Shown here piece by piece: positions 9,907 through 55,676 of a stretch of 64,000 bases of DNA. Each line of letters starts with the position of its first letter. Position 1 is the first letter of the stretch. The stretch comes from Paucibacter sp. B2R-40 (GTDB lineage Bacteria; Pseudomonadota; Gammaproteobacteria; Burkholderiales; Burkholderiaceae_C). The translations under genes and the position numbers were made by a program. The DNA lies in assembly GCF_025717555.1 (NCBI RefSeq), contig NZ_JAJIRP010000001.1:747400-811399 (forward strand), in the 5' to 3' direction. Below the pieces are notes generated by a model, which had not been told where the DNA came from, made no database searches, and saw nothing but the letters and a program-made list of their open reading frames with translations.

Positions 9907-10860
9907 ATGAAACTGCTCTTCGTTGCCGACCCCTTGGCTTCCTTCAAAACCTATAAGGACAGCACTTTTGCCATGATGCGCGAGGCGGCCAAGCGCGGGT
10001 ATCAGCTCTGGACCTGCGAGGTGCAGGACTTGATCTGGCGCTCGGGCGGGCGCGTGATGGCACAGCAGGCCCGCGCGATCACCTTGACCGGAGATGCGCA
10101 CAACTGGTTCACCGAAACCGAGCGTGCGGATCTGGTCGTGGCCGAGGTCGATGCGGTCTTGATGCGCAAAGACCCGCCCTTTGACAGCGAGTTTTTCTAC
10201 GCCACCCATCTGCTGGAACAGGCTGAACGGGAAGGCGCGCGCGTCTTCAACAAGCCGCAGGCGCTGCGCGACCATCCCGAGAAGCTGGCCCTGATGCAGT
10301 TTCCGCAATACTGCCCGCCGACCTTGGTGACGCGCAGCGAGGCGGCGATCCGCGCTTTCCACGCCGAGCATGGCGACATCATCCTCAAGCCGCTGGACGG
10401 CATGGGCGGCACCGGCATCTTCCGTGTCGGGGCCGATGGCATGAACCTTGGCGCCATCATCGAGACCCTCAACAAGGGCGGCGCCGAGACCGTCATGGTG
10501 CAGCGTTACTTACCCGCCATCAAAGACGGCGACAAGCGCGTGCTGGTGATCGGCGGCGTGCCGGTGCCCTTTTGCCTTGCGCGCATTCCGCAGGGCGGCG
10601 AGGTGCGTGGCAACTTGGCGGCCGGCGGCAAGGGCGTGGCCCGGCCCATCAGTGAGCGCGACCGCGAGATCGCCGAAAGCGTTGGCCCCATGCTGGCCGC
10701 GCGCGGCCTCTTGCTGGTCGGCCTGGATGTGATCGGTGACAGCCTCACCGAGGTCAACGTCACCAGCCCGACCTGCTTCCAGGAAATCACCGACCAGACC
10801 GGCTTTGATGTGGCGAAGATGTTTGTCGGCGCCTTGGAGAAAGCGCTGCAACATGCATGA
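9907..10860 (+). CDS. gshB: Glutathione synthetase
   Basis: The 317-residue ATP-grasp enzyme joins gamma-glutamylcysteine and glycine. It starts MKLLFVADPL (ATG 9907, with GAGG 11 bp upstream; an alternative ATG at 9898 lies too close to that site). Visible motifs are RKDPPFDSEFFYAT, ILKPLDGMGGTGIF in the ATP-grasp loop, VPFCLARIPQGGEVRGNLAAGG, and the metal-binding DSLTEVNVTSPT. It completes glutathione synthesis begun by gshA. Confidence 0.96.
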   Translation: MKLLFVADPLASFKTYKDSTFAMMREAAKRGYQLWTCEVQDLIWRSGGRVMAQQARAITLTGDAHNWFTETERADLVVAEVDAVLMRKDPPFDSEFFYATHLLEQAEREGARVFNKPQALRDHPEKLALMQFPQYCPPTLVTRSEAAIRAFHAEHGDIILKPLDGMGGTGIFRVGADGMNLGAIIETLNKGGAETVMVQRYLPAIKDGDKRVLVIGGVPVPFCLARIPQGGEVRGNLAAGGKGVARPISERDREIAESVGPMLAARGLLLVGLDVIGDSLTEVNVTSPTCFQEITDQTGFDVAKMFVGALEKALQHA

Positions 10861-11210
10861 CTGTGTGCTGATCTGCCTCGCGCAAAAGGACTAGGTCGGG
10901 GACACCCTGTCTCGCTTTGGGGTTTGGGCTTTGGGCTTTGCGCGTTGAGGGGTCGCAGCGTGGAGTCGATGGATGACTGGGTACCAAAATATTCGCACGA
11001 CGATTTGAGCTAGCTGGTGTCGGCCCATAGCCGATGTAGATCCAGACAAACCCTAATTTGGTATTAGGGGGGTGATCAGCTATCCCCCCCTAAACAAGGG
11101 GGGATTAAATCGGATTTGATTGACGTGTCAGCTTGTGTGAGCTTGGCCAAAGTGGAAAGATCAGTGCAAGCACAAAGGTCTTGTGTGACACACCGCTCAG
11201 GAGTCCAGCC
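10861..11210. promoter_or_regulatory. Intergenic region with G/C-run inverted repeats
   Basis: No credible gene lies in this 350-bp gap. It holds a perfect inverted repeat CCCTAAT-TTGGT-ATTAGGG (11051-11069) and then alternating homopolymer runs of six G (11067-11072), seven C (11084-11090) and six G (11098-11103), which can pair in more than one way. These lie about 110-160 bp before the first gene of the exported-protein block and look like an operator or a folded leader. An AGGAG ribosome site lies at 11199-11203. Confidence 0.45.
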
Positions 11211-11585
11211 ATGACAAGTTCCGCGAAGAAGTCCCTAGCCAAGCATGCATTCAAGTCGTTTGCAATCGGTTTGACTTTGTTTCCTTTGTTGGCTGCAGCG
11301 CAAGCTCAGAAAGCTGCGGCACCGACACCAAGTCTGGCTGGACCGTCCTTGGTCGAATCCTCCAGAGGTGCTTTGTTCACTGGTAACGGCTACAAGCCGA
11401 ATAGTGCTGTGTCGGTTTCTCTGCGCAGTCCCTCGGGTGTTGAATCGCATGTGTCGACCGTGGTGGCGGCTGATGGTTCGATCAGCTATCGGGTTGATTC
11501 ACCGCTACCTGGTACTTATGGCCTGAAGGTTCTCGACTCGGGTGGCAAGGCGCTGTCGAGCACCGAATTTCATGTCGTGCGGTAA
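11211..11585 (+). CDS. Small exported protein, function unknown
   Basis: 124 residues with a signal peptide (KSFAIGLTLFPLLAAAQAQ, cleavage near residue 33). The mature part of about 90 residues has the short beta-strand pattern of an immunoglobulin-like or filamin-like domain: LFTGNGYKPNSAVSVSL, then GSISYRVDSPLPGTYGLKVLDSGGK. I do not recognise a family. It opens a run of four exported proteins; a 287-bp gap before the next gene suggests that gene may have its own promoter. The base composition of this block looks less GC-rich than its neighbours. Confidence 0.7.
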   Translation: MTSSAKKSLAKHAFKSFAIGLTLFPLLAAAQAQKAAAPTPSLAGPSLVESSRGALFTGNGYKPNSAVSVSLRSPSGVESHVSTVVAADGSISYRVDSPLPGTYGLKVLDSGGKALSSTEFHVVR

Positions 11586-11872
11586 ATACAGGGCTGAGTT
11601 GCAATAGGCCCAAAGGGCACACAGCGGGTCCCAAATTGAAAGCTTGGTAGCTGCGTAATTAGCCTGCATGTGCTTGGGTTCATTGCCATCTTTACTCATG
11701 CATTTGGTCTCTTGCTTTCGGCTGGATTGAAACTCAAATGAGACTTTTCAGCCCAGTTTGCGGTTTGTTGAACCCGTTGTTGCGCTCGCCAAGCAGCCCA
11801 TACGGGATTGCCTTTGTTCAACAAGCGCATCGGTCAACAACTGAAAGCTGGCTTAAAAAATGGAGCGAATTC

Positions 11873-13021
11873 ATGTCATTGAAGTCTAAATTGAGCGCCG
11901 CCGTTGCTGTCACCTCCTCGCGCTCGACCCTTTGCAGTGGTTTCGAGCCCAATCGACCGGGTGCAGGGGTTTTGCTCGTCATTGGGGGACTGGCTCGGCG
12001 CCTGCTGTGGTGCCTTTTGCCATTGGCGGCGGCAGCGACGGCGCAGGCGTCTGACATCGTGTTCACGTCAAACCGCGAAGGCGGCATCTTTCAGTTGTAC
12101 CGAATGGCCGAAGACGGCAGTAGCGTCAAACGCGCAACCGCTGAGGCGATGGAGGCCCAGCAATTTGACCTGTCACCTGACCGCAAAAAGGCTGTGTTCG
12201 TCTCTGTGCGTGCAGGGCAACCGGATTTGTATATTGCCGATCTGCGCACCGGGCAAGTGACCCAGTTGACAAACGATGCGGCAATGGAGGCCACACCGAT
12301 CTGGTCCCCAGACGGCAAGAGCGTCGCCTACCAGTCGTATCTCAGTAGACGCCCAGCGCTCTACATCATCAATGTAGATGGCACAGGACATCGCAAGCTT
12401 ACTGATGAGAAGGGCGAGGAGTCGATGCCGGCGTTCTCTCCAGACGGACGCAAGCTTGCGTATGTCGTCACGATGGGTCGGCGTCAGGCGCAAATTCGCA
12501 CGGTCGATCTGGAGAGCGGCAAATCCACAGTCATTGGCGCGGAGCCGTCGGTAGGCCTTGAGAGTGGGCCGCGCTGGTCCCCGGATGGCAGTCACTTGGT
12601 TTACGTCATGCTGAAAGACGATGTGACCCATATCTACACGATGCGGGCTGATGGGTCCGAGCGCCGTGCGCTCACCACCGGCGAGGATAAAAACAACGAA
12701 CCAAACTGGTCGGTTGATGGCCGACAAATAGTTTTCTTGTCCATACGCAAACCATCGAATCGACAGGCTATTTACGCAATGAGCGAGGACGGCTCTCGGC
12801 AGCGTGAGTTGGTGGGTGGCCCCGAAGAGCATATGTTGGCTCGATGGACACCGGATCACAGAAGCTTGTACTTCATGCGATTCCACCGTGGGGCCGGGCA
12901 GATTTTTGTTGCATCTGCCGATGGTTCTGACATCCGCAAAGTGTCGAGCGGCTCGGGCTATGACGCCGAATTCGCCTTTGTGAGTGACGCAAACAAGGCG
13001 CCAACATTTGCGGCGCGTTGA
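11873..13021 (+). CDS. TolB-like exported beta-propeller protein (PD40 repeats)
   Basis: 382 residues from ATG 11873 (GGAGCG upstream). An N-terminal hydrophobic helix with an Ala-rich end (about residues 35-58) acts as a signal peptide or anchor. The rest is a chain of WD40-like PD40 repeats with the hallmark SPDG turns: FDLSPDRKK, IWSPDGKSVAYQS, AFSPDGRKLAYV, RWSPDGSHLVYV and NWSVDGRQIVFLS. Six or so blades resemble the propeller of TolB, but the TolB N-terminal domain and the tol-pal context are absent. It is probably a periplasmic or surface binding protein serving the neighbouring dockerin and cohesin proteins. The frame is open 45 codons upstream, but a ribosome site favours 11873. Confidence 0.8.
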   Translation: MSLKSKLSAAVAVTSSRSTLCSGFEPNRPGAGVLLVIGGLARRLLWCLLPLAAAATAQASDIVFTSNREGGIFQLYRMAEDGSSVKRATAEAMEAQQFDLSPDRKKAVFVSVRAGQPDLYIADLRTGQVTQLTNDAAMEATPIWSPDGKSVAYQSYLSRRPALYIINVDGTGHRKLTDEKGEESMPAFSPDGRKLAYVVTMGRRQAQIRTVDLESGKSTVIGAEPSVGLESGPRWSPDGSHLVYVMLKDDVTHIYTMRADGSERRALTTGEDKNNEPNWSVDGRQIVFLSIRKPSNRQAIYAMSEDGSRQRELVGGPEEHMLARWTPDHRSLYFMRFHRGAGQIFVASADGSDIRKVSSGSGYDAEFAFVSDANKAPTFAAR

Positions 13022-13079
13022 TCCCGGCGGTACGCCGTTGGTCTTTATATTGGCTCACTTACTCTAAGGAATAGGCATC

Positions 13080-14825
13080 ATGAAGAACGAACGCCAAACC
13101 CAGTCGAGATCCGGTAGGAAAGAGAAGTTGATTGTGATGGCTTGTGTTGCCTTGTGCTCCGGCACAGCATTGGCCGCAAGCAAGACCTATACATTGGATG
13201 CCGATTTTTCATTGGGCATTCTGGAAAACCTGAACTACACGGCGGTCAGCAATCAACTCCAGGTCAATCTGGTTGGCGCTGGATCAAAATACATTTTTGT
13301 CGCCAACCACAATGAAGACACGGTGTCTAAGTTCGACACCGAGCTGAACAAGGAAGTTGCGCGCTACCGCACCTTTGCCGGCACCGGCAATGGCGGCGGC
13401 AACCCCTCGCGGATCGCCATCGACGTGGATGGCAACGCCTATGTCCTGAACCGCGAACCCGGCCACAATAATCCGCCTCAGCTGCTGAAGATACTGGTCG
13501 ACACAGCCGTTGACCGCAATAGCAATGGCATCATCGAGACATCAACCGATCTGAATAACGACGGCATTATTTCGGGCGCCGAAATTTTGCCCTTCACGGC
13601 CAATAACGATGCCGGCGATGCGGTTTTCGCCGATGAACGCATCGCATGGGCCAAGCGCTTGCCCGCAGGCACGAGCTTTGGACGTTCGCTCTGTATTGCG
13701 CCTGACGGCAAGATCTGGGCCGGTGTTTGGAATCAGGCGCGGTATTACCGGATTGATCCCAGCAACGGCAATGTGATTCCGCTTGCGAATGGCAGTCCTT
13801 TTGTGCAGATGACAGCTTGGAATCCCTACGGTTGCACCGTAGACAAGAACGGCATTCTTTGGAGCGCAACACTTTCGCAGCGATTGGGTAGGGTAGACAC
13901 CGCAACCGGAGCCGTCAGTCATTTCGATGGGCCTGGCAGTACCTACGGTATTTCTCAGGGTGGTGGAAAGGTGTTTCAGGCCAACACGAGTGGAAGCACG
14001 TTTCACGTATTCGACCCCTCCACCAATACATTTGCTAGCCCTGCGGCCTTGAGCTTCGGCAGCTACGGCATCGCCGTGGATGGCGCCGGCAATGTCTTGT
14101 CCAGTAACCCGAATGGTGGTGTTGCCAAGCATTCTCCGACCGGGACCTTGCTGTGGCAGCGCGGAGCGCAAGCGGGTACATCTTTCCCATTCGGGGTCAT
14201 GATCGATGGCAACAATGACGTCTGGGTGATGAACCTGAATACCAACAATATGTCCAAGTACAAGGGTACCGACGGCACGCCATTGGGCTTGTTTCCGACC
14301 GGAGCTTATCCCTATGTATACACCGATGGTTCCGGTTTGACGACCAAGAACACCACCAACAACAAACAGGGGACTTGGACGGTCGTTTACGACAGTGCCG
14401 CTGCTGGCACACAGTGGGGCAAGGTCAACTGGAGCGACTTTGTGCCCGGCGGTGCGAGTGTGGAGGTGTCTACGCGTGCGGCCGATACGCAAGCCGCGCT
14501 TGATCTGCAGGCCTACATGCCTGTGACGAAAAACACCAGCTTCGCTGCTGCGGGCCGTTTTATTCAGGTGCGCACTCGTATGGTCAATAACACCAACAAT
14601 GAGTCGCCGATTCTGTTTGATCTGACCATCAACAGCAAAGTTCTGGTCTGCGATGTCGACGGTGACGGCGACATCGATACGGCCGACCTCGGTTTGATCC
14701 GAGCCGGCGTCGGGCTAGTGCCGGTCGCAAATGACCCGCGCGATGCAAACGGCGACGGCAAGATCACCATCAACGATGTGCGTGCCTGCACCCTCAAATG
14801 CACCAAGGCCGCTTGTGCGCCTTGA
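13080..14825 (+). CDS. Exported NHL/Vgb-like beta-propeller with C-terminal dockerin
   Basis: 581 residues. A signal peptide ends near ALAA-SK (residue about 34). Residues about 65-420 are NHL/virginiamycin-lyase-like propeller repeats (KYIFVANHNEDTVSKFD, RIAIDVDGNAYVLNR, GIAVDGAGNVLSSN). Within them an insertion near 145-170 carries EF-hand-like loops (DRNSNGIIE, DLNNDGIISGAE). The C-terminus has a two-repeat type I dockerin: DVDGDGDIDTAD (about 525-536) and DANGDGKITIND (about 555-566), with cysteines flanking the pair. Dockerins bind cohesins through two Ca2+-loaded F-hands. The next gene, 44 bp downstream, encodes a cohesin-like protein, suggesting that the two products bind each other on the cell surface. 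Confidence 0.85.
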   Translation: MKNERQTQSRSGRKEKLIVMACVALCSGTALAASKTYTLDADFSLGILENLNYTAVSNQLQVNLVGAGSKYIFVANHNEDTVSKFDTELNKEVARYRTFAGTGNGGGNPSRIAIDVDGNAYVLNREPGHNNPPQLLKILVDTAVDRNSNGIIETSTDLNNDGIISGAEILPFTANNDAGDAVFADERIAWAKRLPAGTSFGRSLCIAPDGKIWAGVWNQARYYRIDPSNGNVIPLANGSPFVQMTAWNPYGCTVDKNGILWSATLSQRLGRVDTATGAVSHFDGPGSTYGISQGGGKVFQANTSGSTFHVFDPSTNTFASPAALSFGSYGIAVDGAGNVLSSNPNGGVAKHSPTGTLLWQRGAQAGTSFPFGVMIDGNNDVWVMNLNTNNMSKYKGTDGTPLGLFPTGAYPYVYTDGSGLTTKNTTNNKQGTWTVVYDSAAAGTQWGKVNWSDFVPGGASVEVSTRAADTQAALDLQAYMPVTKNTSFAAAGRFIQVRTRMVNNTNNESPILFDLTINSKVLVCDVDGDGDIDTADLGLIRAGVGLVPVANDPRDANGDGKITINDVRACTLKCTKAACAP

Positions 14826-14869
14826 GTGAAGCTGACTTTCGAGCGCTCAACTTTTACTTAGGATTCAAG

Positions 14870-15493
14870 ATGAAGAAATTTATTGCAAATTCCCTTGTCG
14901 CCGTCAGCGCGGTGTTGGGTGCGGGTTCGGCCATTGCCTCGCCCATAGTTGTCAGCTTCGCAAGCTCGGCTCTCAATCAACATATCAATGTTGGTGAGAC
15001 GGTCACCATTGATGTCAACATCAGCGGCCTTGGAGCCGAAGTGCTGTCTGGCTACGATCTGAATTTTCTCTACAACGGATCTATCTTGAACTGGCTTTCA
15101 ACGGACGAAAGCTCGGTACTTTCTCAGTTGGGCGCGTCGCCATTCGTTTTGAATGATCCATTCGCCGCAGGCAATCTGGGCATGTTCGCTTCTGCAACGG
15201 TCGGCGATGCAACGCTTTTAAACGATCAGGCCGATGACTTCTTGCTCTTCCGTTTCAAGTTGACCGGCAGTGCCGATGGGGTAACGTCATTCGGCCTGGG
15301 TGGAAATTTGGACAATGAGCGCAACTTTACGGGACTGCAATTTGGTACGCTGAACGTCGATGTTGGCGGCCTTTGCGTTGCGGTTGGTACTGGCCAATGC
15401 GAAGTGCCTGAACCTAGGTCCTACGCACTTGTTGGCTTGGCCATGTTTGCTGCATTTGCCCCCACTGCAATGCGCCGCCGCAAGGCCAAGTAG
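14870..15493 (+). CDS. Cohesin-like domain protein with PEP-CTERM sorting signal
   Basis: 207 residues. A signal peptide (MKKFIANSLVAVSAVLGAG, cleavage near residue 24) is followed by one domain with cohesin-type traits: a strand-rich start with VGETVTIDVNISGL, then GYDLNFLYNGSILNWLS and FLLFRFKLTGSADGVTSFGLGG. The end is a classic PEP-CTERM signal: VPEP at about residue 179, a hydrophobic helix, and RRRK. Such proteins are processed by exosortase and tied to exopolysaccharide export; no exosortase gene is in the window. Two cysteines lie just before VPEP. It directly follows the dockerin gene and ends in a terminator. The cohesin assignment rests on pattern and context. Confidence 0.8.
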   Translation: MKKFIANSLVAVSAVLGAGSAIASPIVVSFASSALNQHINVGETVTIDVNISGLGAEVLSGYDLNFLYNGSILNWLSTDESSVLSQLGASPFVLNDPFAAGNLGMFASATVGDATLLNDQADDFLLFRFKLTGSADGVTSFGLGGNLDNERNFTGLQFGTLNVDVGGLCVAVGTGQCEVPEPRSYALVGLAMFAAFAPTAMRRRKAK

Positions 15494-15511
15494 ATTTGCA
15501 GGTTTGATGTG

Positions 15512-15543
15512 AAAAAGGCCGCGCCCTACAGCGCGGCCTTTTT
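15512..15543 (+). terminator. Rho-independent terminator after the cohesin gene
   Basis: A GC-rich stem AAGGCCGCGC / GCGCGGCCTT with a short loop is flanked by A and T runs, 19 bp after the cohesin gene's stop. The symmetrical A/T flanks would let it work in both directions. Confidence 0.92.
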
Positions 15544-15691
15544 GCTGTGCAAGCGCAGGATATTTTTAAGTGGGGAGGGCGGCAAATTCTCGCTCAGCTT
15601 CTGTGCATCGCCGGACCGATGCCTTGGCCTGTTTGGGCTGGCTATTCCGGATATGCTGCGCAACGAAATCACCGTCAAGAAAAGGACATCC

Positions 15692-16801
15692 ATGATCAAG
15701 ACTCGTGCCGCCGTTGCCTGGAAAGCTGGCGCCCCATTGACGATTGAAGAGGTGCAACTCGACGGCCCGCGAGCCGGCGAGGTCTTGGTCGAGGTCAAGG
15801 CGACCGGCATCTGTCACACCGACTATTACACGCTGTCCGGCGCCGACCCGGAAGGCATCTTCCCGGCCATTCTCGGGCACGAGGGTGCCGGCATCGTGCT
15901 CGAAGTCGGCGAGGGCGTCACTTGGCTCAAGCCCGGTGACCATGTGATCCCGCTCTACACGCCGGAATGCCGGCAGTGCAAGTTTTGCCTCTCGCGCAAG
16001 ACCAATCTTTGCCAGGCGATCCGCTCGACGCAAGGGCGCGGCTTGATGCCTGACGCGACCTCGCGCTTCTCCATCGACGGTCAGCCGATCTTTCATTACA
16101 TGGGAACCTCGACCTTCTCGAACCACATCGTTGTGCCCGGCATTGCGCTGGCCAAGATCCGCGAGGATGCGCCTTTTGACAAGGTTTGCTATATCGGCTG
16201 TGGCGTTACCACCGGGGTCGGCGCGGTGCTGTTCACGGCCAAGGTCGAGGCCGGCGCCAATGTGGTGGTGTTTGGCCTCGGCGGTATCGGCCTGAACGTG
16301 ATCCAGGGCGCAAAAATGGTGGGCGCTGACAAGATCATCGGCGTCGATCTGAACCCGGCTCGCGAGGCAATGGCGCGCAAATTCGGCATGACGCACTTCA
16401 TCAACCCGAAGAACGTCGCCAACGTGGTGGACGAGATCGTGCAGTTGACCGATGGCGGCGCCGACTACAGCTTCGAGTGCATCGGCAATACCAAGGTCAT
16501 GCGTGACGCATTGGAATGCACGCACAAGGGCTGGGGCCGCTCCATCATCATCGGCGTGGCCGAGGCGGGGGCCGAGATCAGCACCCGGCCGTTCCAACTG
16601 GTGACCGGGCGCAAATGGGAGGGCTCGGCCTTCGGCGGCGCGCGTGGCCGCACCGATGTGCCGCGCATCGTCGATTGGTATATGGACGGCAAGCTCAATA
16701 TCGACGACCTGATCACCCACAAGCTGCCGCTTGAGCGCATCAATGAAGGCTTCGAGTTGATGAAGCGCGGAGAGTCGATCCGCGCGGTGGTGGAGTTCTG
16801 A
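15692..16801 (+). CDS. frmA: S-(hydroxymethyl)glutathione dehydrogenase (class III ADH)
   Basis: The 369-residue zinc enzyme oxidises S-hydroxymethylglutathione, formed spontaneously from formaldehyde and glutathione, to S-formylglutathione with NAD+. Catalytic zinc ligands are in GICHTDYYTLSG and GHEGAG. The structural zinc cysteines are in CRQCKFCLSRKTNLC. The nucleotide fold shows VFGLGGIGLNV, and SFECIG precedes the C-terminal domain. ATG 15692 is the family start; an upstream open frame runs into the preceding terminator. The hydrolase gene follows 2 bp later, forming the standard detoxification pair. Confidence 0.95.
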   Translation: MIKTRAAVAWKAGAPLTIEEVQLDGPRAGEVLVEVKATGICHTDYYTLSGADPEGIFPAILGHEGAGIVLEVGEGVTWLKPGDHVIPLYTPECRQCKFCLSRKTNLCQAIRSTQGRGLMPDATSRFSIDGQPIFHYMGTSTFSNHIVVPGIALAKIREDAPFDKVCYIGCGVTTGVGAVLFTAKVEAGANVVVFGLGGIGLNVIQGAKMVGADKIIGVDLNPAREAMARKFGMTHFINPKNVANVVDEIVQLTDGGADYSFECIGNTKVMRDALECTHKGWGRSIIIGVAEAGAEISTRPFQLVTGRKWEGSAFGGARGRTDVPRIVDWYMDGKLNIDDLITHKLPLERINEGFELMKRGESIRAVVEF

Positions 16802-18583: not shown

Positions 18584-19303
18584 TCAAGCTTGCTTTTGCT
18601 TGCGGCGCAAGGCCAAGGCGCCCAGGCCCAGGGCCATCAGCGCGTAGCTTGTTGGCTCGGGCACGGCGGCGGTGATGTTCAACGTATCGATGCCCATATA
18701 GTCCGAGTTATCGCCAGCAGGGCCACCGTTGTCAACGAAGTAACGGAAGGCCAGTGCGCCATTGGTGGTGCCGGCCAGGCCGCTCAGTGTGACGCTGTAT
18801 TTGGTCCACTCTTCAGGGTAGGTGCTGAGATCCAGATCAGGGTTGACGCTGACCAGCAAGGTGGTGAAGCTGCCCACATCGGAGGCAGAGCTGCCGACGT
18901 TGGTGCCGCCGGCAGCGCTGAAGCGCAGCTCCAGGCGGTCAGGGTAGATCGAATCGGTGATAGTGCGAGTGTAGAAGCTGATCTGGTCGCCGTTGTGAAA
19001 GCTCATTGTTGGCAGGATCAGCCAATTGCTGATGGTGCCTGCGCCGGCGGTGCTGTTGTAGTTGGCGGCCGCATAGGAATTGGCGGCACCGGCTTGGGCG
19101 GCAAAAGTAGTGGGCGTTGGATTGCCTTGAAACCAAGTCGTCGAGCCAACCGGATCGCTATTGTTCTGAATGGTCCAGGCTCCGGGGATGCCGGCGTCAA
19201 AGCCCTGGCTGTAGTCGGCATGAGCGCTACCGGCAAAGGCCAGCGCCAAAGCCGAAACGATTGCTGGCACGCTGGCCTTGGCAAACAAAGAAGTTGAAGT
19301 CAT
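18584..19303 (-). CDS. PEP-CTERM protein with choice-of-anchor-type beta domain
   Basis: 239 residues from ATG 19303 (AAGGAA ribosome site). A signal peptide ends at SAHA-DY (about residue 30). The body has the pattern of a jelly-roll 'choice-of-anchor J'-like domain: SQGFDAGIPGAWTIQNNSD, WLILPTMSFHNGDQISFYTRT, and LAFRYFVDNGGPAGDNSDYMGID. The C-terminus is AAVPEPTSYALMALGLGALALRRKQK, a full PEP-CTERM tripartite signal for exosortase. Probably an exported matrix or surface protein. No exosortase is encoded nearby, as is usual for scattered PEP-CTERM genes. Confidence 0.9.
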   Translation of the reverse strand: MTSTSLFAKASVPAIVSALALAFAGSAHADYSQGFDAGIPGAWTIQNNSDPVGSTTWFQGNPTPTTFAAQAGAANSYAAANYNSTAGAGTISNWLILPTMSFHNGDQISFYTRTITDSIYPDRLELRFSAAGGTNVGSSASDVGSFTTLLVSVNPDLDLSTYPEEWTKYSVTLSGLAGTTNGALAFRYFVDNGGPAGDNSDYMGIDTLNITAAVPEPTSYALMALGLGALALRRKQKQA

Positions 19304-19471
19304 TTTTGCATTCCTTCTGAAGCAGATCCGCAAGGATCAAGTTTGGCTTGCGCCGGTTAAGTGAAGCGGGCCGGGCTGATCGGCCGGATCGGGCATTTTG
19401 TTGTGCACCCCATCTTGCTCACCGCATAGCTGGTTTGTACCGGCGGTGGCTATGTGACGAATCCGTGAAAC

Positions 19472-51003: not shown

Positions 51004-51191
51004 AGCGACGGGCATAGCCCGAAATCGTCAGGCGCTTCCCGCAATCTCCGATCTGCGGCGGCCTGCTCCAAAACCCTCTGTCGGCTGCTTTTGCCTGCCG
51101 GTAAGGTTTGCTGCGTACCGCGTCCCTAAGGTCGTTCGGACCCGGCACGAGCTGCAAATCAAACTATCCAACATCGAGCGAGCAAGCAAGC

Positions 51192-52337
51192 ATGAAAACA
51201 TTCAGTCTGACAATTCTGGGCCTGAGCGCCCTGGCCTTGGTGCCGGCCGCGCAGGCCGCCGCGCCCAGTTACGCCATCGTTGATCTCGGCGTGATCGGCA
51301 GTGGGGAGTTCTCCCAGGCCTTCGGCGCGTCCCGCAATGGCAGCATTGTGGTCGGGCGCTCATCCGATAGCCATGACCAAGCTTTCAGCTGGACATCACA
51401 GGGCGGCATGGTCGCCCTGCCCAATCTGGCAGGGCGCAATTTCGCCTCAGCCAATGCCGTCAATAACGCCGGCATCGCCGTCGGTGTTTCTTCGACCACC
51501 TGGTTTGGCAGCGACCCATTGCCGGTCATTTGGAAGCAGGGCGCGGTCGCAACGCTGGCCATGCCTCAAGGCTACAGTTCCGGCTGGGCCTACAGCGTCA
51601 ACGCCTCAGGCGTCGCTGTCGGCGCCGTCGGATCTGGCAACTTTGAGCGTGCCGCCCTGTTTGGCCCGAATGGCAGTTCTTTGATCACCGCGACCGCAGC
51701 CAATGGCGCCTGGATGAGCACCGCCTTCGGAATCAATGATGCCGGCCTGGTCGTTGGCATCGGCGTTGACCCGGACAATCTGGCCCTGAATGTTGGCCTG
51801 GTCTACAACTCGGTGACCGGTGTCATGAGCACGGTCGGGGCTTTGCCGGGCAATACCTCCGCGATCAACTTCGGCCTCAGCAATAGTGGCTATGTCGTGG
51901 GCGGCAGCGGCCTGTACCAAGCCTCGGGCAGCCCCTTCAGGTGGTCGGCGTCGGAAGGCATGGTGGAGATCGGCCTGCCACCTGACACCAGCTCAGGTTC
52001 TGCCAGTGCGGTCAATACCCAGGGCTGGGTCGTGGGAAATGCCGGCGGGCTGTATTCGGTGCCCTTCTTGTACGCCGACGGTGTGACCTATTCTTTGCAG
52101 AGCCTCTTGCCAGTTGGCAACGACTGGGACTTCAGCACCAACACCAGCGCATCGGCAATGTCCATTGCCGATGACGGCAGCATCGTGGGCACCGCCGTGC
52201 ACGCGGGGCTCACGCATGCCTATCAAATGACGCTGATTTCCAGCGTGCCCGAGCCCGAGAGCTGGGCGCTGATGTCAGGCGGACTGGGCCTGTTGGGCGC
52301 CCTGGCACGTCGTCGCCGGCGAGCTCGGGGCGCCTGA
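51192..52337 (+). CDS. HAF-repeat PEP-CTERM exported protein
   Basis: 381 residues. Signal peptide (LTILGLSALALVPAAQA-AA, about residue 22). The body is a run of HAF-type repeats with the pattern A-x-x-x-N-x-x-G-x-x-V-G: AFGASRNGSIVVGRS, ANAVNNAGIAVGVS, AYSVNASGVAVGAVG, AFGINDAGLVVGIG, FGLSNSGYVVGG and SAVNTQGWVVGNA. The end VPEPESWALMSGGLGLLGALARRRRRARG is a PEP-CTERM signal. It is probably exported and released or surface-held after exosortase cleavage. The long upstream open frame is discounted because the signal peptide starts at ATG 51192. Confidence 0.9.
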   Translation: MKTFSLTILGLSALALVPAAQAAAPSYAIVDLGVIGSGEFSQAFGASRNGSIVVGRSSDSHDQAFSWTSQGGMVALPNLAGRNFASANAVNNAGIAVGVSSTTWFGSDPLPVIWKQGAVATLAMPQGYSSGWAYSVNASGVAVGAVGSGNFERAALFGPNGSSLITATAANGAWMSTAFGINDAGLVVGIGVDPDNLALNVGLVYNSVTGVMSTVGALPGNTSAINFGLSNSGYVVGGSGLYQASGSPFRWSASEGMVEIGLPPDTSSGSASAVNTQGWVVGNAGGLYSVPFLYADGVTYSLQSLLPVGNDWDFSTNTSASAMSIADDGSIVGTAVHAGLTHAYQMTLISSVPEPESWALMSGGLGLLGALARRRRRARGA

Positions 52338-52356: not shown

Positions 52357-53076
52357 CTAGACTTTGCGCCGACGGGCGGCAGCGCCTACCAACCCCAAGC
52401 CGCTCAGCAGCAAGGCGTAGCTGCTTGGTTCCGGCACGGCGGCGATGCTGCCCAGGGTCAGGTCATTCGCCGCCACCCAGCTGGCGCCGCCAATGGGCTG
52501 CACGGTGCTGACCTGGAAAGCCTCCAGTCGGCTGCTCGAGACAAAGCCGAAGAAGCTGCCCGGCGCGGTGTTGTCCACCAAGATCAGCTCCTCAACGCCG
52601 TCGGCGTCCAGCACATTCAAGCGGATGGTCTGGCCGGGCAGATAGGCGCCGTTCGCATCGGTGCCGAAGAAGAAGCCTCCGACCGCATTGACCTTGTCGG
52701 AGAAATAGCCAAAAGTCAGGTAGTCGCTGGCCTTGTCGGTAGACAGCCAGGCGTCGCTGCCGCTGCCGGCGCTGTAGAGCAGCGAATCTTCGCCCTCCTC
52801 GGCCACCGACCAGGCTACATAGCGGTGCTCGCCAGCCGTGCGCTCCACATAGCCCGGCCCCTGGGCCCAAAAGGGCAAGTCATCGAAGCGGTCGACCGCC
52901 TGGGCCGAGATGGCGGCCAGGTAGGCTGCCTGCGAGTTGTAGAAAGTGATCTCGGCTTGCGCGCTGCCAACGCTGCAGCTGAGCAGGGCGGCCAGGGCCA
53001 AAGCGGGAGCCAAAGCGGGTGCCAAAGCTGGAGCCAGAGCGGAGCCGGTGAAGTAGTTGTGTAGTTTGTTTGTCAT
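52357..53076 (-). CDS. PEP-CTERM protein with repeat-expanded signal peptide
   Basis: 239 residues from ATG 53076 (GGAGAAC upstream). The signal peptide carries an in-frame APAL repeat (APALAPALAPALAL) encoded by imperfect 12-bp DNA units (about 52992-53046), ending QA-EI near residue 42. The body resembles PEP-CTERM 'choice-of-anchor' beta domains: RFDDLPFWAQGPGYVE, SDYLTFGYFSDKVNAVGGFFFGTDANG and ELILVDNTAPGSFFGFVSS. The C-terminus is VPEPSSYALLLSGLGLVGAAARRRK. It is 23 bp downstream of the metalloprotease gene on the same strand and probably in its operon. Confidence 0.88.
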   Translation of the reverse strand: MTNKLHNYFTGSALAPALAPALAPALALAALLSCSVGSAQAEITFYNSQAAYLAAISAQAVDRFDDLPFWAQGPGYVERTAGEHRYVAWSVAEEGEDSLLYSAGSGSDAWLSTDKASDYLTFGYFSDKVNAVGGFFFGTDANGAYLPGQTIRLNVLDADGVEELILVDNTAPGSFFGFVSSSRLEAFQVSTVQPIGGASWVAANDLTLGSIAAVPEPSSYALLLSGLGLVGAAARRRKV

Positions 53077-53099
53077 GGTGTAGTTCTCCGGATTGGGTT

Positions 53100-55676
53100 T
53101 CAATTGATCTCGCAGCGGCCCAAGCGCGCGCCGCCCTTGACCTTGGCGGCAGCTTGCGCCGGGAAGGCCACCAAGTTGTTGGCGCCGCCTTCGCAGACAT
53201 AGACCTGCTTCATGTCGACATGCCAAGTCATCTGCAGGCCGGTCACGCCGCCGACCAGGGTGTTGCCGGGGCCGTTGATGGCGATCGGGTTTTCCATGCC
53301 GTACTTCTCGGCCTCGACCACGCCCTGCTTGCGGAAGAAGTCATTCAGGCTGATCCAGCCCAGGTCCTCTGCCCACATAAAGCCGGCGATGCTGGTGAAG
53401 AAGCTGCCGACGCGGGCGATGATGACGCGGCCGTCATCGCTGATGCCATTGAGCTGCTGTTCCGGCACGCCGTAATTGGCCTCGACCCAGGCCGCACCTT
53501 CGACCTTGCAGTGGTCGATGCCGTCCCAACTCGGGAAGGGGAAGTCGATGCAGTACTTGGGCGCGTTGATGCTGCGGAAAGCGCTCGGACCCGTACCCTG
53601 TGTCGGGTTCCACAGCAGCACGCCGCGCTCGGTCGCCAGCGGCACGCGCAAGCCATCGTTGCTGACCAGATCGGCCACATAAGCGCCGGTCAAGGCGGTC
53701 AGGTCGATAGGCGCGCCTTCCTTGATCCAGGCATAGGCGTTCTCGCCATTGCCCTGGCCGACCACCACGCCGCCATCGGCGGATACGCCGGCCGCGCGTA
53801 TCCAGGGCATCCAATCCATATTCAAGCCGTCCAGCCGCAGCGCTCGGCCGCCTTTGTCGGCCGTCCACAGATAAGGCACCACGCCCAGGGTGCCGAGCTG
53901 CGAATTGAATTCACCGCAACTGCCGTCCGCGTTTTCATAGGTGCTGAAGCCGACAGCGGCGCTGCCCTTGCGGTTCATGCCCCAACCTACGCTGCTGATA
54001 TGCCCGCCCCAGCTGTCGCAGTGATTGCTCAAGGCGCCCAGTGGCGTCAGCGCGTGGGTCTGGTAGTTCCACAAAGCCATCTGCTTGAGGGTGAAGGGGT
54101 TGCCGTCCGGGTCCCACTGAGTCTCGCCGTCAAAATTGGCCTCCACCAGCATCTGGCGGCCATCGCCGGTGATGGTGCTCAGTGCCGAGGCCAGCAGGTC
54201 CAATTCCTGCGGCAGCAGGCGCGGGCCGGTCTGGGCGTCCCAGACGAAGGGCGTGTCTTGGCCGACCACGCCGCCGGCGCGTTGGCCGTCGTCCGACAGG
54301 CTGGTCAGGTAGCCGGCGGTCAGAAAGCTGTATTGCACGCCGTCGGTGTGGCCATTGAAGATCAAGTTGGCGGTCTTGGTGACGCCGGCCTCGGCCTTGA
54401 TGGCACCGGCCAAGCAGGGCGTATCGGCGTGTGGGTCATTCGACTCGCCTTCGTTCCAATATTCTGGCTGCGACATCATCATGGTCGGCTGGGTCGGGTA
54501 GCCGCCGCGGCTGATCTCCTCGGTATAAATCTTGTAAATCTCGCCGGCCTTCAGGTTGTTGATGCGAAAGCGCCCATCCGGGCCGATCTGGCCTTGGGTC
54601 TGGTCGCCCGACATCACCGAGATCGCGTCGCCCAGTGGATCCTTGACGTTGCGCGCAATGATGTTGATGCCGCTGTAGCCGGTGCGCCCGTCCTTCAGCG
54701 TCAGCGTGCCGGCGATGGAGCCGGTCTTGCTGAAATAGTCGGCCGAAGGGTAGAGGTTGGAGATGCCGGCGATATCGTCCGCGCGGTCCACCGTGCTCAT
54801 CTCGTAGCCGGCCGAGCGACCCTTGGCGACATTGTGCGAGTCGATGAAGGGGAACATCGTCTCGATATGCTTGGGGTCGATGTGGCTGGCGTTCGGGCCC
54901 TTGAGCCAATGGTGAACCGGCGCCACACAGCCGGCCACGCCGGGGTAGAGGTCGCCGCCATAGCCGGGCATGCTCATATAGGCGAGCTGACCATTGGTCT
55001 GCGAATGCGACAGATTGATGGCATGGCCGAACTCATGCGTGAAGATGCCGGCATAACGCGCACCATCGACGTCGGCCGGCGGTTGGCTGCGCTGGCCCGC
55101 TGGTGGCGCCTCGTGGTCGACCATCCAACCATTCATCACGGCGGTGGCTTTGACGATGGTATCGGGGTAGCCGTCGCCGTCGCGGTCTTCGGCAATCTCG
55201 GGCATCGCGATACCCAAGACTTGGTCGCGCGGCACGCCGAAAAACTCCTCCAACACGCGGCCGTCCACGTCATAGATCACATAGAAGCCGCCCTCGTTGT
55301 AGTGGCCGTAGACCAGGCTGGCGGTCGCGCCATCGTTGACGTCAACGCCGATGCTCGGCACTTGACTGAAGGGCGTGAACTTGGCCGGGTCGGTCTCGGC
55401 GCGCCAGGTCGAGCTGGCCACCGAACTCCATTGCTTCAGGCCAAAGGCGGTGATCTTGTTGGCCTGCGCTTCGCTCAGGAAGACCGTGCCATCGTTCTTG
55501 CGGCTGAAGGCGCCAATGTCGGTGTAGACCTTGATCGCGCCTTGGGAGGTGTCCCAGCGCAGCGGCTGCAGATTGGCCGGGTTGTTGTTGAGCAAGAGCG
55601 GGCCGGCGGCTTGGGCGCCGGTGACAAGCGCCAAGGCGCAGGCGGCCAGGGCGGAGAGTTTGAAATGGGTTTTCAT
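53100..55676 (-). CDS. Exported metzincin-type metalloprotease with HAF-like C-terminus
   Basis: 858 residues. Signal peptide (LSALAACALALVTGAQA-AG, about residue 24). The catalytic zinc motif HEFGHAINLSH (HExxHxxxxxH) lies at residues 214-224, and a following Met turn (YMSMPGYGG) fits metzincins. A carboxypeptidase-regulatory-like beta domain follows (GSIAGTLTLKDG ... NIIARNV, about 325-400). Residues about 470-820 contain HAF-like units (VSADGGVVVGQG, ISDDGRVIIARVG, AFxW-type strands) like those of the gene at 51192. Its ATG overlaps the stop of the upstream partner (ATGA). It is probably a secreted protease acting on surface or matrix proteins. Confidence 0.88.
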   Translation of the reverse strand: MKTHFKLSALAACALALVTGAQAAGPLLLNNNPANLQPLRWDTSQGAIKVYTDIGAFSRKNDGTVFLSEAQANKITAFGLKQWSSVASSTWRAETDPAKFTPFSQVPSIGVDVNDGATASLVYGHYNEGGFYVIYDVDGRVLEEFFGVPRDQVLGIAMPEIAEDRDGDGYPDTIVKATAVMNGWMVDHEAPPAGQRSQPPADVDGARYAGIFTHEFGHAINLSHSQTNGQLAYMSMPGYGGDLYPGVAGCVAPVHHWLKGPNASHIDPKHIETMFPFIDSHNVAKGRSAGYEMSTVDRADDIAGISNLYPSADYFSKTGSIAGTLTLKDGRTGYSGINIIARNVKDPLGDAISVMSGDQTQGQIGPDGRFRINNLKAGEIYKIYTEEISRGGYPTQPTMMMSQPEYWNEGESNDPHADTPCLAGAIKAEAGVTKTANLIFNGHTDGVQYSFLTAGYLTSLSDDGQRAGGVVGQDTPFVWDAQTGPRLLPQELDLLASALSTITGDGRQMLVEANFDGETQWDPDGNPFTLKQMALWNYQTHALTPLGALSNHCDSWGGHISSVGWGMNRKGSAAVGFSTYENADGSCGEFNSQLGTLGVVPYLWTADKGGRALRLDGLNMDWMPWIRAAGVSADGGVVVGQGNGENAYAWIKEGAPIDLTALTGAYVADLVSNDGLRVPLATERGVLLWNPTQGTGPSAFRSINAPKYCIDFPFPSWDGIDHCKVEGAAWVEANYGVPEQQLNGISDDGRVIIARVGSFFTSIAGFMWAEDLGWISLNDFFRKQGVVEAEKYGMENPIAINGPGNTLVGGVTGLQMTWHVDMKQVYVCEGGANNLVAFPAQAAAKVKGGARLGRCEIN

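Follow-up and report, generated by a model that had tools for sequence, protein, structure and literature searches.

The genes at 13080-14825 and 14870-15493 of the window (the whole stretch of 64,000 nucleotides from Paucibacter sp. B2R-40 that was analysed) encode, respectively, a propeller-like protein that carries a dockerin and a cohesin protein that bears a PEP-CTERM sorting tail. We consider it probable, at roughly 0.77, that the two form a dedicated pair of anchor and cargo, predicted to work as a one-to-one, Ca2+-dependent clip at the cell surface and not as a multi-cohesin scaffold. The anchors studied contain one cohesin each, mostly with a sorting tail, while the cargo differs, and this combination of a constant anchor with exchanged cargo across relatives argues for a function of the pair in surface display. 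After export, the cohesin protein would be retained by the PEP-CTERM tail, and an exosortase would process it for delivery to the outer surface or the matrix, as suggested by the tail and by the exosortases of the genome. The propeller protein would also be exported, and its dockerin may plug into the cohesin with Ca2+, which is consistent with intact Ca2+ loops and with a single-chain model of a paralogous pair. Cargo carrying such a dockerin would need no sorting signal of its own.

Organisation of the cassette

The features of the cassette are, in order:

11211-11585, plus strand: first gene of the cassette, small exported Ig-like protein of 124 aa (open reading frame; top Pfam match E 0.27, below cut-off)
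11873-13021, plus strand: exported TolB-like (PD40) beta-propeller (PD40 E 4.5e-42)
13080-14825, plus strand: exported propeller-like protein of 581 aa with C-terminal dockerin (SGL E 9.5e-6, below cut-off; homologues in relatives)
14649-14825 (stop included), plus strand: dockerin domain with two Ca2+ loops and a C-terminal C-x(4)-C tail (PF00404, below cut-off)
14870-15493, plus strand: cohesin PEP-CTERM protein of 207 aa, consisting of signal peptide, one cohesin and sorting tail (PF00963 and PF07589, both below cut-off)
14939-15376, plus strand: cohesin domain of the PEP-CTERM protein
15404-15490, plus strand: PEP-CTERM tail with VPEP, hydrophobic stretch and RRRKAK (sequence; PF07589 at residues 179-204; aligned tails)
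15512-15543, plus strand: terminator-like hairpin 3' of the cassette (RNA fold)

Open reading frames, Pfam searches and RNA folding reproduced the four genes, their coordinates and the 3' terminator as given by the first-pass annotation, the hairpin being terminator-like with a 13-pair stem and a z-score of -2.64 (3 of 200 shuffled sequences folded equally well). The signal peptides of all four plus-strand products were judged by eye. For the TolB-like gene, which scored 217.8 bits against TIGR02800 and thereby stayed under the cut-off of 343.15, the start was taken at 11873, with an alternative ORF start at 11738. The resulting gap of 287 bases after the Ig-like gene makes a single transcript uncertain in the window; in several relatives the cassette genes are tightly spaced. 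The position of the TolB-like gene 5' of the propeller-dockerin gene is kept in relatives, and an Ig-like homologue precedes it for example in L043, L044, L046, L047 and L049. A scan of 10800-15800 found no sigma-70-type promoter. Promoters of the sigma-54 (-24/-12) type were considered and rejected, because the window contains 47 matches with up to two mismatches versus 55 expected, none of them between the upstream gene and 11211. Three more proteins of the window have PEP-CTERM-like tails by profile match (18584-19333, minus strand; 51108-52337, plus strand; 52357-53226, minus strand), the first of them with a choice-of-anchor J domain.

Domain assignment and structure model

The dockerin contains two 12-residue Ca2+ loops, DVDGDGDIDTAD and DANGDGKITIND, and its PF00404 match (E 0.0038, 17.8 bits) misses the curated cut-off of 22.9. 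All 50 aligned dockerins have Asp as the first and twelfth residue of both loops, and each loop is followed by a helix; in the model of L041, the paralogous pair described below, these helices span residues 17-25 and 47-55. In the earlier description of an NHL-like propeller ending in a two-repeat dockerin, the dockerin is borne out by its two loops and the propeller is matched weakly, by SGL with 25.8 bits (cut-off 26.3) and by NHL with E 0.84.

The cohesin-like domain with a PEP-CTERM signal, also proposed at that stage, was recovered by Pfam below cut-off in both parts: PF00963 matched with E 3.2e-4 and 21.3 bits (cut-off 24.1), and PF07589 matched the tail with E 0.016 and 15.7 bits (cut-off 20.7). 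Among 14 aligned proteins (alignment A1, E <= 0.1), PF00963 was found in 10 and PF07589 in 12. A sequence search against solved structures up to E 10 returned only 5nrm and 5nrk (E about 0.1), which according to their entry titles are cohesins of Acetivibrio cellulolyticus scaffoldin B. The tail combines a PEP motif, a hydrophobic stretch and a basic end, as in exosortase substrates, and the genome encodes two PF09721 proteins (exosortases), in agreement with the exosortase setting assumed before.

Structure prediction was performed on L041, a second pair of the same genome whose dockerin and cohesin genes lie in one frame and whose domains are 78% (dockerin) and 42% (cohesin) identical to those of the window. 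AF2 received this pair as a single chain of 256 residues with 39 aligned rows, including the two window domains (alignment A7), and returned a model with pLDDT 89.3 and pTM 0.82. The Foldseek comparison with the PDB gave 109 matches at E <= 0.001, and the best 50 of these 109 are cohesin entries by title, except for six scaffoldin or cellulosome rows (4fl4, 3kcp). The top match is a C. acetobutylicum cohesin with a TM-score of 0.73 by target length. The cohesin fold, on which the original proposal depended, is thus predicted for the paralogue L041 as the modelled chain rather than for the window protein, which was a row of the alignment. Dockerin and cohesin make up the ordered fraction of the L041 chain, about 208 of 256 residues, and since the pTM of 0.82 is close to this fraction, the model probably has the dockerin packed against the cohesin; we would expect a free dockerin to give a pTM nearer 0.6. 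As a sign of docking in the L041 chain, this single-chain pTM is only suggestive.

Dockerins and cohesins of the same genome

A search for further dockerins and cohesins, recommended by the first-pass annotation, yielded three of each, co-located. The dockerin profile detected three dockerins at E <= 1, and cohesin profile A1, which spans domain and tail, gave 89 matches, three of which cover the cohesin domain. The tail-free cohesin profile A4 found the same three cohesins at E <= 1e-5, and the Pfam models ranked the same three dockerins first and recovered two of the three cohesins. None of the three cohesin genes is farther than about 1 kb from a dockerin gene. In the third pair, L078, a reprolysin-like protease carries the dockerin (PF00404 E 2.3e-12), and the cohesin-PEP-CTERM gene is encoded on the opposite strand, separated from it by about 0.9 kb that include one small ORF; its PF00963 match (E 2.4e-11, 44.4 bits) clears the cut-off. 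No frame with two cohesins occurred among the matches listed in these profile searches. The other 86 A1 matches (E <= 1) cover mostly tail positions only, indicating a genome rich in PEP-CTERM proteins.

Conservation of the pair in relatives

Across the 150 family genomes searched, 8 encode a protein related to the cohesin protein and 24 one related to the propeller-dockerin protein, many through the propeller only; matches confined to the propeller were left out of the follow-up. The family and own-genome set comprises 17 dockerin loci (the window, L041-L055 and L078), of which 16 have a cohesin nearby and 13 have the cohesin gene directly downstream of the dockerin gene. The cohesin gene lies about 1.6 kb upstream of the dockerin in L053, cohesin, PEP-CTERM tail and dockerin share one frame in L054, the two genes are on opposite strands in L078, and L050 has another PEP-CTERM protein instead of the cohesin.

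The named genomes contributed 36 loci: a cohesin gene adjoins the dockerin in 18, an alternative PEP-CTERM partner takes this place in 12, and 6 show neither (L101, L103, L113, L109 and L110 with the dockerin close to where the contig ends, and L114, for which the profile detected no dockerin); in L112, no partner was found for a second dockerin gene. Two of the 18, L087 and L094, repeat the family loci L044 and L048 and were excluded from profile A4 and from the tree tests; L054, L078 and L098 were excluded from A4 as well. Organisms given in the record titles of these loci include Roseateles, Aquabacterium, Paucibacter, Methylibium, Rubrivivax, Accumulibacter and Thauera, and further Hahella, Thioalkalivibrio, Paraglaciecola, Nitrospirae and Desulfobulbaceae, with many MAGs among them.

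A survey of 369 genomes of the class (E <= 1e-5) found dockerins in 17, cohesins in 15 and both in 13, versus 0.7 expected if the two were independent (Fisher p 8e-19). All 13 genomes with both domains have a dockerin no more than about 2.5 kb from a cohesin, measured from domain to domain, and dockerins and cohesins are equal in number in 11 of the 13; G389 and G485 have two dockerins and one cohesin. Four genomes have dockerins only: no cohesin was found in the stretches examined of G237, G286 and G456, and G495 has a weak cohesin-like neighbour (E 4.5e-4). The two cohesin-only genomes are G274, with no dockerin in the stretch examined around the cohesin, and G225, with weak cohesin-like and dockerin-like stretches within the same proteins. 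Both the class survey and the named-genome scan are biased towards pairs, because A4 was made from dockerin-adjacent cohesins and the named genomes were scanned with a single type of dockerin. Adjacency of dockerin and cohesin is recurrent across the class and therefore beyond chance; the proposal that the two genes stay together in relatives holds in all 13 class genomes with both domains and in 16 of 17 family and own-genome loci.

Distance trees of dockerins and cohesins agreed with r 0.69 over 40 pairs (a value reached by none of 5000 shuffles) and r 0.82 over 20 closer pairs, both uncorrected for shared ancestry, and within 13 propeller loci with r 0.22, compared to -0.10 for a propeller-cohesin control. 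Being strong over 40 pairs and weak within the propeller loci, this mirror-tree signal was set aside as proof of binding.

Diversity of cargo and anchors

Beside cohesins, dockerins are attached to propellers, IgGFc-binding proteins (L041, L079), a metallo-beta-lactamase fold (L051), a reprolysin-like protease (L078), EGF domains (L105), TSP3 repeats (L098) and PKD, Ig or cadherin-like repeats (L054, L089, L102, L106, L108, L111), and the dockerin is located at either end of the cargo, depending on the locus. IgGFc-binding (L093) and TSP3 (L097, L107) cargo also occurs beside the alternative partner. That no carbohydrase accompanies the pair had been noted for the window, and it extends to its relatives: among the Pfam matches listed at E <= 0.1 for 27 dockerin proteins (26 from relatives and that of the window), there was no catalytic glycoside-hydrolase family. 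PF21027, named for a cellulose-binding protein, was above cut-off in L089, L102, L103 and L108, where it overlaps PKD repeats, and polysaccharide-lyase accessory domains were seen below cut-off in L089, L102 and L103.

By eye, 24 of 33 distinct cohesin partners end in a tail with a literal PEP and 5 in a tail with a variant (AEP, DEP, SEP, PAP); the tail is internal to a longer frame in L053 and L054 and absent from L104 and L108. The frame of L054 (8000-11437, minus strand, 1145 aa) contains the cohesin, the PEP-CTERM tail, a second signal-like stretch and a C-terminal dockerin, and is perhaps a polyprotein bringing anchor and cargo together. In L053 (11314-12282, minus strand), the reading frame continues beyond the cohesin-PEP-CTERM part with another signal-like stretch and one more domain. 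L108 (2778-6764) encodes a 1328-aa Ig/cadherin-type protein that starts with two tandem dockerins and adjoins the cohesin gene without PEP tail, and L083 (1088-5855) contains two tandem dockerin-cohesin pairs; within each pair, one stop is all that separates the two in-frame genes.

An alternative PEP-CTERM partner

In 13 loci (L050 and 12 named loci, representing G062 and 12 named genomes), the gene 3' of the dockerin gene belongs to another PEP-CTERM family, whose members resemble each other and share the consensus DLLxGGSITAGDKLFD. Seven of these loci (L050, L085, L086, L088, L090, L095, L099) retain the TolB-like gene and the propeller, so that the TolB-propeller cassette occurs with either anchor. 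Cohesin searches at E <= 0.01 were negative in 11 of the 13 genomes (completeness is known for one only), and in G062 and Hahella (G521) the best cohesin match adjoins a different, weaker dockerin. Apart from L100, the dockerins of these loci (12 of 13) form a clade of their own. The idea that the alternative family is a hidden cohesin was not supported: in the members scanned, the cohesin profile gave no match at E < 0.1, and for the model of a fused dockerin and alternative partner (pLDDT 82.2, pTM 0.73, the dockerin part only moderately confident), none of the 50 PDB matches listed is a cohesin.

It is conceivable, if rather doubtful, that this family represents a second, non-cohesin receptor of dockerins, in which case the plug would have gained a socket of a different fold. 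Such a role is weakened by the class survey, in which the family was present in 2 of 369 genomes, both times on short contigs and with no dockerin in the stretch examined.

Scaffold, co-location or clip

The first-pass annotation saw in the pair a possible surface scaffold or matrix assembly. PEP-CTERM cohesins that accept several dockerin proteins or cross-pair could indeed generate a network at the surface or in the matrix, and the presence of three dockerins and three cohesins within one genome would permit this, as would the arrangement in G389, where a cohesin gene sits between two dockerin genes (L120, L131, L144). In G225 (L166, 2769-5232), two neighbouring proteins, both with a weak resemblance to cohesin in one stretch and to dockerin in another, could even form chains. 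However, each anchor studied has a single cohesin, the pairs are co-located, no own-genome match listed has two cohesins in a frame, and dockerins and cohesins are matched in number, three to three in the Paucibacter genome and with equal counts in 11 of the 13 class genomes with both domains. The scaffold reading is therefore unsupported, and we regard it as unlikely.

Even less probable, in our estimation, is that the genes stay together for another reason, for example shared control of a cassette for exported proteins, and that the dockerin is not bound to the cohesin in the cell. The 13 loci in which a similar dockerin protein is found beside an unrelated PEP-CTERM protein would fit this explanation, and so would the weak tree agreement inside the propeller group. 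Against it, adjacency outlasts the exchange of the whole cargo and extends to MAGs labelled Nitrospirae, Deferrisomatales and Desulfobulbaceae, genomes with a single domain are few (6 versus 13 with both), and the two folds are those of a known binding pair. We accordingly favour the dedicated clip of one anchor and one cargo. If it exists, exosortase-bearing Gram-negatives would gain a general, non-covalent means to display diverse proteins on their surface or in flocs, based on a kind of pair that ranks among the tightest known in bacteria, the role of cohesins and dockerins outside cellulosomes would become directly testable, and small natural pairs with differing cargo could serve as parts for surface display.

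Comparison with known systems

With the type I pairs of cellulosomes (CaCohA2-CaDoc0917 of C. acetobutylicum, 6kgf; C. thermocellum, 1ohz), the pair has the cohesin fold and the two-loop dockerin in common, and the L041 model aligns to 6kgf_C with a Foldseek E of 1.7e-10, its identity to the listed PDB matches being 8-17%. Unlike in these pairs, no cellulase cargo was seen, each anchor has one cohesin, and a PEP-CTERM tail is present; a cellulosome with a multi-cohesin scaffoldin and dockerin-bearing cellulases is apparent neither from the own-genome matches listed nor from the 27 dockerin proteins.

Cohesins and dockerins outside cellulose degradation were surveyed in all domains of life, a setting like the one described here (Peer 2009, as cited in PMC5244752 and PMC9012536). 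In PMC9012536, PMC10553843 and PMC5244752, non-cellulosomal cohesin and dockerin proteins of ANME archaea and their sulfate-reducing partners are proposed to act in adhesion and surface attachment, and PMC10553843 speaks of 'adjacent cohesin/dockerin domains'. As far as these sources describe it, the ANME system differs from the window pair by proteins with up to five cohesins, by S-layer/dockerin proteins and by transporter-type cargo. The same kind of sorting tail is found in PepA of Aquincola, which acts in floc formation and for which the abstract mentions no cohesin protein (PMC9850573), and in the PEP-CTERM/EpsH system as outlined in PMC1569441, the text of which contains neither the word 'cohesin' nor 'dockerin'.

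Dockerin and PEP-CTERM appear together nowhere in the literature searched, which lies mostly outside subscription journals, while 39 of its papers combine PEP-CTERM with exosortase; dockerin and exosortase co-occur there in a single review, on methane-oxidising archaea. Of the initial statement that such an assembly was not described, the part on the PEP-CTERM combination stands for the literature searched, whereas non-cellulosomal cohesin and dockerin modules, even 'adjacent' ones, had been published. As the search lay mostly outside subscription journals and did not include Peer 2009, our claim of novelty is a limited one: new is the combination with PEP-CTERM, while non-cellulosomal cohesins and dockerins as such were already known.
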